A stretch of 64,000 bases of DNA, taken from Natrinema pellirubrum DSM 15624. Its GTDB lineage: Archaea > Halobacteriota > Halobacteria > Halobacteriales > Natrialbaceae. Numbering within the stretch: the first letter of the stretch is position 1; each line of letters starts with the position of its first letter. Shown here piece after piece: positions 32,166 to 33,638 of this stretch. The stretch lies in assembly GCF_000230735.2 (NCBI RefSeq), contig NC_019962.1, positions 434,001 through 498,000 on the forward strand. Direction: 5' to 3'. The position numbers and the translations under genes are program-made. Below the pieces are notes generated by a model. It did no database searches. It had not been told where the DNA came from and saw only the letters and a list, made by a program, of their open reading frames with translations.

Positions 32166-32816
32166 TCACTCCGCCAGCCGCGCGTGGAAATACGGGAACC
32201 GAGCGTCCTCCTCGTCGGCGAGCGCGTCAGTGAACTCCCCCGTCGTGACCAGTTCGAACCCGGCCGATTCGAGCTGCTCACGTGTCGCTTTCGCCCCGGC
32301 CATGTGCCACTGCATCTCGGTCCCGCTCTCGAGCCAGTTCGGGTTCGAACCGGTCCATTCGGTCCACCCTTCCGTGAGGAGGAGCCGTCCGCCGGGTTTG
32401 AGAACGCGTTCGAACGCCTCGATCGCCGTCTGATGGTCGTCGATCGGGACGTGAATCAGCGAATACAGTGCCGTGACGGTGTCAAACGTGTCCGCAGCGA
32501 ACGGCAGCTGACTCATCTCTCCCTGACACAACGCCGCGTCGGGAACGAGCCGCATCGCCGTCTCGAGTTGTCCCCGCGAGAGGTCGAGCCCGACGGCTAG
32601 CTCCGGGTCGCACTCGTTCGAGGGGTCGAGGGCGTACTCGAGCGCCGGGGTTCCTTGTCCGCAGCCGGCATCGAGGAGGCGACACCCGTCCGGCACCGAA
32701 TCGAACAGCGCCTCGAGCGCTGCCGACTCGGACTCGTCGTACGTCGCGACTCGCTCGCTCGTGTACGTCGTCGTGATTTCGTCGTACGCACAGCGGACGT
32801 CTTCCCTGTCGACCAT
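32166..32816 (-). CDS. Class I SAM-dependent methyltransferase
   Basis: A 216-residue methyltransferase. Motif I is LLDAGCGQGTPALEYA (residues about 45-60), the acidic second strand end is VGLDLSRGQLE, and motif post-II is ALCQGEMSQLPFAADTFDTV. LKPGGRLLLTEGW is the conserved strand after the switch. It resembles UbiE/MenG-like small-molecule methyltransferases. Substrate unknown. Confidence 0.88.
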   Translation of the reverse strand: MVDREDVRCAYDEITTTYTSERVATYDESESAALEALFDSVPDGCRLLDAGCGQGTPALEYALDPSNECDPELAVGLDLSRGQLETAMRLVPDAALCQGEMSQLPFAADTFDTVTALYSLIHVPIDDHQTAIEAFERVLKPGGRLLLTEGWTEWTGSNPNWLESGTEMQWHMAGAKATREQLESAGFELVTTGEFTDALADEEDARFPYFHARLAE

Positions 32817-32864: not shown

Positions 32865-32933
32865 TTACTCCCGCCCGAGCGTATGGAACTCGTCGTTGGG
32901 GCGCATCTCGGCGAACGTCGCCATGCGATTGCT
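32865..32933 (-). pseudogene. Detached C-terminus of the AhpD-like gene
   Basis: On the minus strand these 22 codons plus stop read SNRMATFAEMRPNDEFHTLG, then RE and TAA. Removing the 151-bp element and one copy of the 8-bp duplication joins them in frame after Y-Y-N-M of the gene at 33075-33638, giving a 204-residue protein. This is the original end of that gene. Confidence 0.75.
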
Positions 32934-32941
32934 CATGTTGT

Positions 32942-33092
32942 TAGCGTGTCATAGAATACGTCTCATACCCTCAACTTGGCGATTATACAGCTTCCAATTC
33001 GCGTGTAATCCTATGAATTTCGTCAGTCATGGGTTTTGCTCAAGGGCGAAACCGTGAACAACGCCTCCTGAGAACTATTCTATGACACGCTC
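32942..33092. mobile_element. MITE with 16-bp perfect terminal inverted repeats and 8-bp target duplication
   Basis: The left end carries AGCGTGTCATAGAATA (32943-32958) and the right end TATTCTATGACACGCT (33076-33091). Five further pairs match after two mismatches. CATGTTGT flanks it on both sides (32934-32941 and 33093-33100). The 151-bp element has no ORF and is AT-richer than its surroundings, so it is non-autonomous. The parent insertion sequence is not in the window. Eight-bp duplications are known for IS6, IS66 and IS1595 families; which applies is not decided here. Confidence 0.85.
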
Positions 33093-33638
33093 CATGTTGT
33101 AGTAGGCCGTGACGGCTCCGATGTCCCAGATCGCCTCCTCGCTGAAGCCGGCCTCCCGTAACGCCTCGAGGTCGGCGGGCCCGACTTCGGTCGGCCGCTC
33201 GGTCAGCTTCACGGCGACGTCGAGCATCGTTCGGTGGGCGTCGTTGATGTCCGCGGTCCGGTAGTTCGCGACCAGCTGATCCGCGAGGTGCGGGTCCTCG
33301 GCGTAGATCCGTACAAGCGCGCCGTGGGCGACGTTACAGTAGTAGCAGTGATTGACGCCGGAGACGGCGACGACGATCATTTCGATCTCCTCGCGCTCTA
33401 AGGCGGTGTCCTCGACGAGCGCGTCGTGGAACGCGAAAAAGGCCCGGAAGTGCGAGGGCTTGTACGCGAACGCCGAGAACACGTTGGGCGTGAACCCGGC
33501 TTCCTCGGTCTCCTCGGCGATTCGCTCCCGCAGGTCCGCAGGGAGGTCGTCGAACGCGGGAACCGGGAACTGAGCCATCGCGTCATCATCGAGTTCCGTT
33601 GTCGGTTCGGCCGTCGAGTCAGTGTCGGAATTGGCCAT
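33075..33638 (-). CDS. AhpD-like/carboxymuconolactone decarboxylase-family peroxidase-related protein, C-terminally truncated
   Basis: As it stands the gene encodes 187 residues. The redox motif HC98-Y-Y-C101-NVAH105 fits the AhpD family, in which a Cys pair and a His reduce peroxides through lipoyl or other thiol partners. The last five residues, ERVIE, come from the inserted MITE, whose terminal repeat supplies the TAG. The lost 22 codons lie beyond the element. The catalytic domain remains, so some activity is possible. ATG 33638 was chosen over a longer frame that overlaps the GIY-YIG gene. Confidence 0.85.
   Translation of the reverse strand: MANSDTDSTAEPTTELDDDAMAQFPVPAFDDLPADLRERIAEETEEAGFTPNVFSAFAYKPSHFRAFFAFHDALVEDTALEREEIEMIVVAVSGVNHCYYCNVAHGALVRIYAEDPHLADQLVANYRTADINDAHRTMLDVAVKLTERPTEVGPADLEALREAGFSEEAIWDIGAVTAYYNMERVIE

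Follow-up and report, generated by a model that had tools for sequence, protein, structure and literature searches.

ISH2 is a haloarchaeal MITE that is mobilised by ISH8 (PMC10264941). A cassette made of ISH2 and a partial ISH8A has been described in Halobacterium, integrated as one with one common duplication (PMC10264941), and in Halobacterium the target duplications reported for ISH11 measure 6, 8 and 9 bp (PMC10264941). The HqIRS MITE families of Haloquadratum walsbyi have only their termini in common with a transposon (PMC3119063). Proteins of the AhpD-like type usually form oligomers, in most cases hexamers, and additional terminal helices distinguish 2PRR from PA0269 (PMC3141380).

We analysed a window of 64,000 nucleotides (C1:434001-498000) of the 4.35-Mb, three-contig genome of Natrinema pellirubrum DSM 15624. 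An AhpD-like open reading frame on the minus strand (33075..33638) encodes 187 residues and ends with YYNM-ERVIE-stop; the five final codons and the stop fall inside the right end of a 151-bp element. The element occupies positions 32942..33092 of the plus strand, has the 16-bp perfect terminal repeats (TIRs) AGCGTGTCATAGAATA at both ends, and is flanked by exact copies of the 8-bp target-site duplication CATGTTGT (left, 32934..32941; right, 33093..33100). These features agree with the initial annotation. When the flanks were joined without the element and one duplication (151+8 = 159 bp, 53 codons), YYNM was followed by SNRMATFAEMRPNDEFHTLGRE in a protein of 204 residues ending with YYNMSNRMATFAEMRPNDEFHTLGRE. 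The predicted length of 204 instead of 187 residues was thus correct, and the tail ends with HTLGRE rather than HTLG. The orphaned 3' end of the gene, which holds this conserved tail and the original TAA stop, was located by flank joining and orthologue comparison at 32865..32933 of the minus strand. The downstream class I SAM methyltransferase gene on the same strand (32166..32816, minus) is intact, and the same order is found in Natrinema thermotolerans.

As judged from its sequence, the gene belongs in broken form to TIGR01926, a family of putative peroxidase-related, AhpD-like proteins. The profile score is 166.7 bits against an NCBIfam cut-off of 81.8, and the match ends at position 163 of 178. 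The CxxC active-site region (C98-YY-C101...H105, invariant residues in the alignment) is intact, and the complete C-terminal tail of the family (SNRMA..MRPN.EF) is absent, removed by the insertion. The conserved last 22 amino acids have been exchanged for 5 meaningless ones.

We compared the joined protein with 80 named loci and about 30 loci from whole genomes, some of them from the same species. The ~110 haloarchaeal orthologous loci carry the predicted tail, apart from substitutions and differences in the last residues, with the pattern ...YN(L/M)SNRxAxFAxMRPNxEFHxLGR, and none of them ends with ERVIE, the outcome that would have spoken against the proposal that the C-terminus had been replaced. 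In 28 diverse haloarchaeal sequences, conservation is 90% or more at S183, N184, R185, R193, P194, N195 and F198, and the tail is also conserved in the solved bacterial structure 2prr (LSNRMANTIGMRPNDEFFLMGR). The closest named match of the protein is that of N. thermotolerans (97%), with 12 nucleotide and 5 amino-acid differences over the 546 bp compared. N. thermotolerans DSM 11552 has the empty site: it contains one ACAACATG, its DNA is uninterrupted (ACTACAACATGAGCAATCGCATGG), identity is ~96% on either side of the junction, and the gene order is the same.

A genome search with the element gave 13 near-identical places (98-100%) on the three contigs. The 151-bp units are identical in 10 of the 13, and the other three have one shared substitution. 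With 13 such copies, the observation is far beyond chance. The element is short (within the 50-500 bp of MITEs), has a TIR in common with an autonomous element, carries a target-site duplication, exists in dispersed copies and contains no open reading frame that could encode a transposase. Its TIRs can be extended to 23 bp at 91% identity. Most of the single copies have duplications of 5-8 bp; that of one copy (L010) is doubtful, with a match of about 4 bp. The duplication is intact and the element copies are identical, in line with the initial view that the insertion is recent. No Rfam match was found in the region and no match to the MITE in the phage collection, and the literature searched contained no description of this MITE or, in Natrinema, of any MITE associated with ISH11.

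Relatives of ~150 bp, 75-83% identical, are present in Natrinema and in many other haloarchaeal genomes, and are best conserved in the left ~60 bp and the right ~24 bp. In relatives, short matches covering the first ~45 bp were considered as possible ISH11-type IS termini. A transposase was absent from the vicinity of most loci sampled, and close inspection of two showed them to be different ~150-bp MITEs whose interiors have diverged. Compared with window positions 33069-33092, the related MITEs elsewhere (L157-L172) mostly have ATACAAT or ATATAAT in the right TIR, read in the sense of the gene strand. The burst copies in this genome have ATAGAAT, which makes both TIRs identical to each other and equal to the ISH11-type TIR. 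Having a perfect right TIR may have helped these copies to multiply.

Full IS copies of about 1.07 kb carry the TIR pattern as well (AGCGTGTCATAGAA(T/A)), and the MITE and ISH11-type TIRs are equal over 15 bp or more. The IS copies with the MITE's TIR fall into two subtypes whose proteins are 78% identical to each other, and one subtype includes six copies that are identical from end to end. Their transposases contain the DDE_Tnp_1 domain (PF01609) and are 71% identical, over 97% of the query, to the annotated ISH11 of Halobacterium. Target duplications here, mostly 5-8 bp, vary like those of ISH11. The initial annotation had proposed a search for a transposase-bearing relative; between the MITE and the ISH11-type IS found here, only the ends match, and the interiors are unrelated. 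Among 119 genomes, the MITE family was found in 31, an ISH11-type transposase in 34 and both in 22, a co-occurrence of 22 against ~9 expected (Fisher P 7e-9, uncorrected for relatedness of the genomes). Some relatives with the MITE family had no ISH11-type transposase at the threshold used. Because termini and variable target duplications are common to both, the ISH11-type IS (IS5-like) is the likely mobiliser on sequence grounds.

Three loci contain an ISH11-like IS, 23 bp of host DNA and the MITE in a row, a composite unit of 1242 bp (1.24-kb) from TIR to TIR. At C1:3098448-3099690, which is donor-like, each element has a separate duplication, CACCAGCC for the IS and GTAACAAC for the MITE, and the 23-bp spacer reads CACCAGCC-AGTTATA-GTAACAAC. 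The units at C1:745308-746550 and C1:300350-301592 each have one outer duplication, ACTTATTA and ACGTCTGCT, respectively. In the simplest reading, the IS and the MITE met at C1:3098448-3099690 and the other two loci are transposed copies. The composite units pair one IS end with one MITE end, so that both ends were used together, and their recurrence at two sites with new outer duplications indicates that the IS transposase can use a MITE end. On balance, we favour a recent birth of a composite transposon, in which an IS and a MITE lying 23 bp apart became one unit that moved to two more sites.

Taken as a whole, the locus is explained, with high confidence, as follows. The non-autonomous 151-bp MITE has inserted into the AhpD-like gene directly after codon 182, and 8 bp were duplicated; an ISH11-type (IS5-like, DDE) transposase would have moved it in trans. 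Read on the gene strand, the right TIR of the MITE supplies E-R-V-I-E and a TAG stop, so that translation stops within the TIR and the 22-residue conserved tail is lost. The short form could instead be the normal protein of this lineage, with an accidental downstream likeness to the longer C-terminus, and its frame is indeed open, with a proper start and stop and an intact CxxC active-site region. However, the orthologues, including the 97% identical one of the close relative, have the exact tail that lies here beyond the element, and the ERVIE codons belong to a repeat that the genome also has at 12 other sites. This reading is refuted by the orthologue comparison together with the empty site, and we give it practically no chance.

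We also considered that the element is not a MITE and is the remnant of a full IS deleted in place, the joined ends of a decayed ISH11. Internal deletion can give rise to MITEs, and the TIRs equal those of the ISH11-like IS. But a local remnant does not fit a unit that stands at 13 places and has relatives in many haloarchaeal genomes, nor an interior that has no match to the IS; for this copy the idea is refuted by these findings and is very improbable. A transposase of the genome other than the ISH11-type could have moved this copy, given that some genomes with related MITEs have no strong ISH11 match. Against this stand the 15-16-bp TIR in common, the similarly variable target duplications and the composite units, in which an IS end is paired with a MITE end, and we regard this alternative as unlikely, albeit less so than the other two. 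We infer that an ISH11-type transposase was the mover of this particular copy.

Other copies of the MITE also lie, or appear to lie, in coding sequences. At C2:258368-261521, a copy with the duplication GATAAA splits a BREX PglX-like methyltransferase gene. One half matches positions 341-835 of PADLOC PDLC02518 and the other positions 832-1334; PglX of the C2 replicon is probably inactive. From joined frames checked by eye, copies appear to split open reading frames resembling a tyrosine integrase (C1:1970316), an Lrp/AsnC-type regulator (C1:1847061) and a parallel beta-helix protein (C3:102389). Two elements of 2473 bp that are bounded by ISH11-type ends and lie in opposite orientation (C3:109550-112090 and C3:142400-144950) hold a second open frame of ~450 codons beside a broken ISH11-type transposase. 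A separate 9-10-bp duplication flanks each of them, and the enlarged unit therefore seems to have moved as one.

AlphaFold2 modelled an intact orthologue with a mean pLDDT of 92.5, a last long helix at 167-189, a short helix at 196-200 and single bridge residues at 21 and 192. In the model of the truncated protein, built from 186 residues, the mean pLDDT was 86.0, the bridge was gone and confidence near residues 11-30 was lower. The two models point to packing of the tail against the N-terminal segment. The truncation takes away the conserved tail and the end of the last long helix and leaves the CxxC region in place. Because of this loss, the truncated protein is likely to be impaired in folding and stability or in oligomerisation and assembly, and we infer a loss of function. 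The core of the fold is predicted to be kept, and the truncated protein might still be working.

Both the features described at first and their reading as a MITE insertion hold. Recent insertion of a MITE into a conserved gene is an ordinary event, and the general mechanism is already well known. The documentation of this case, including the likely mobilising family, is unusually full. The locus shows cleanly, in a natural setting, how a haloarchaeal MITE truncates a conserved gene, with the probable donor IS family, duplications, an empty site and ~110 orthologues at hand. The composite unit is the most interesting by-product. It provides evidence from nature that a MITE end is accepted by an IS transposase, and illustrates how IS/MITE pairs can pick up host DNA.

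As to known systems, the truncated protein has the CxxC hairpin and overall helical fold in common with the TIGR01926 proteins 2prr and 3c1l, but lacks the conserved last 22 residues. The partner IS resembles ISH11 of Halobacterium salinarum (IS5-like) in its ~1.07 kb length, transposase and variable duplications, whereas the MITE lacks a transposase gene and its interior is unrelated. Like ISH2, the MITE is non-autonomous and has its TIR in common with a coexisting IS; unlike it, it is 151 bp rather than about 520 bp long, and ISH2 belongs to another IS family and has 10-bp duplications (PMC10264941). By description, it is similar to the HqIRS families in being short and mostly non-coding, with only the termini common to a transposon (PMC3119063). 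In contrast to the cassette of ISH2 and partial ISH8A, the composite unit here consists of a complete IS, 23 bp of host DNA and the MITE, and its donor-like locus is still recognisable.
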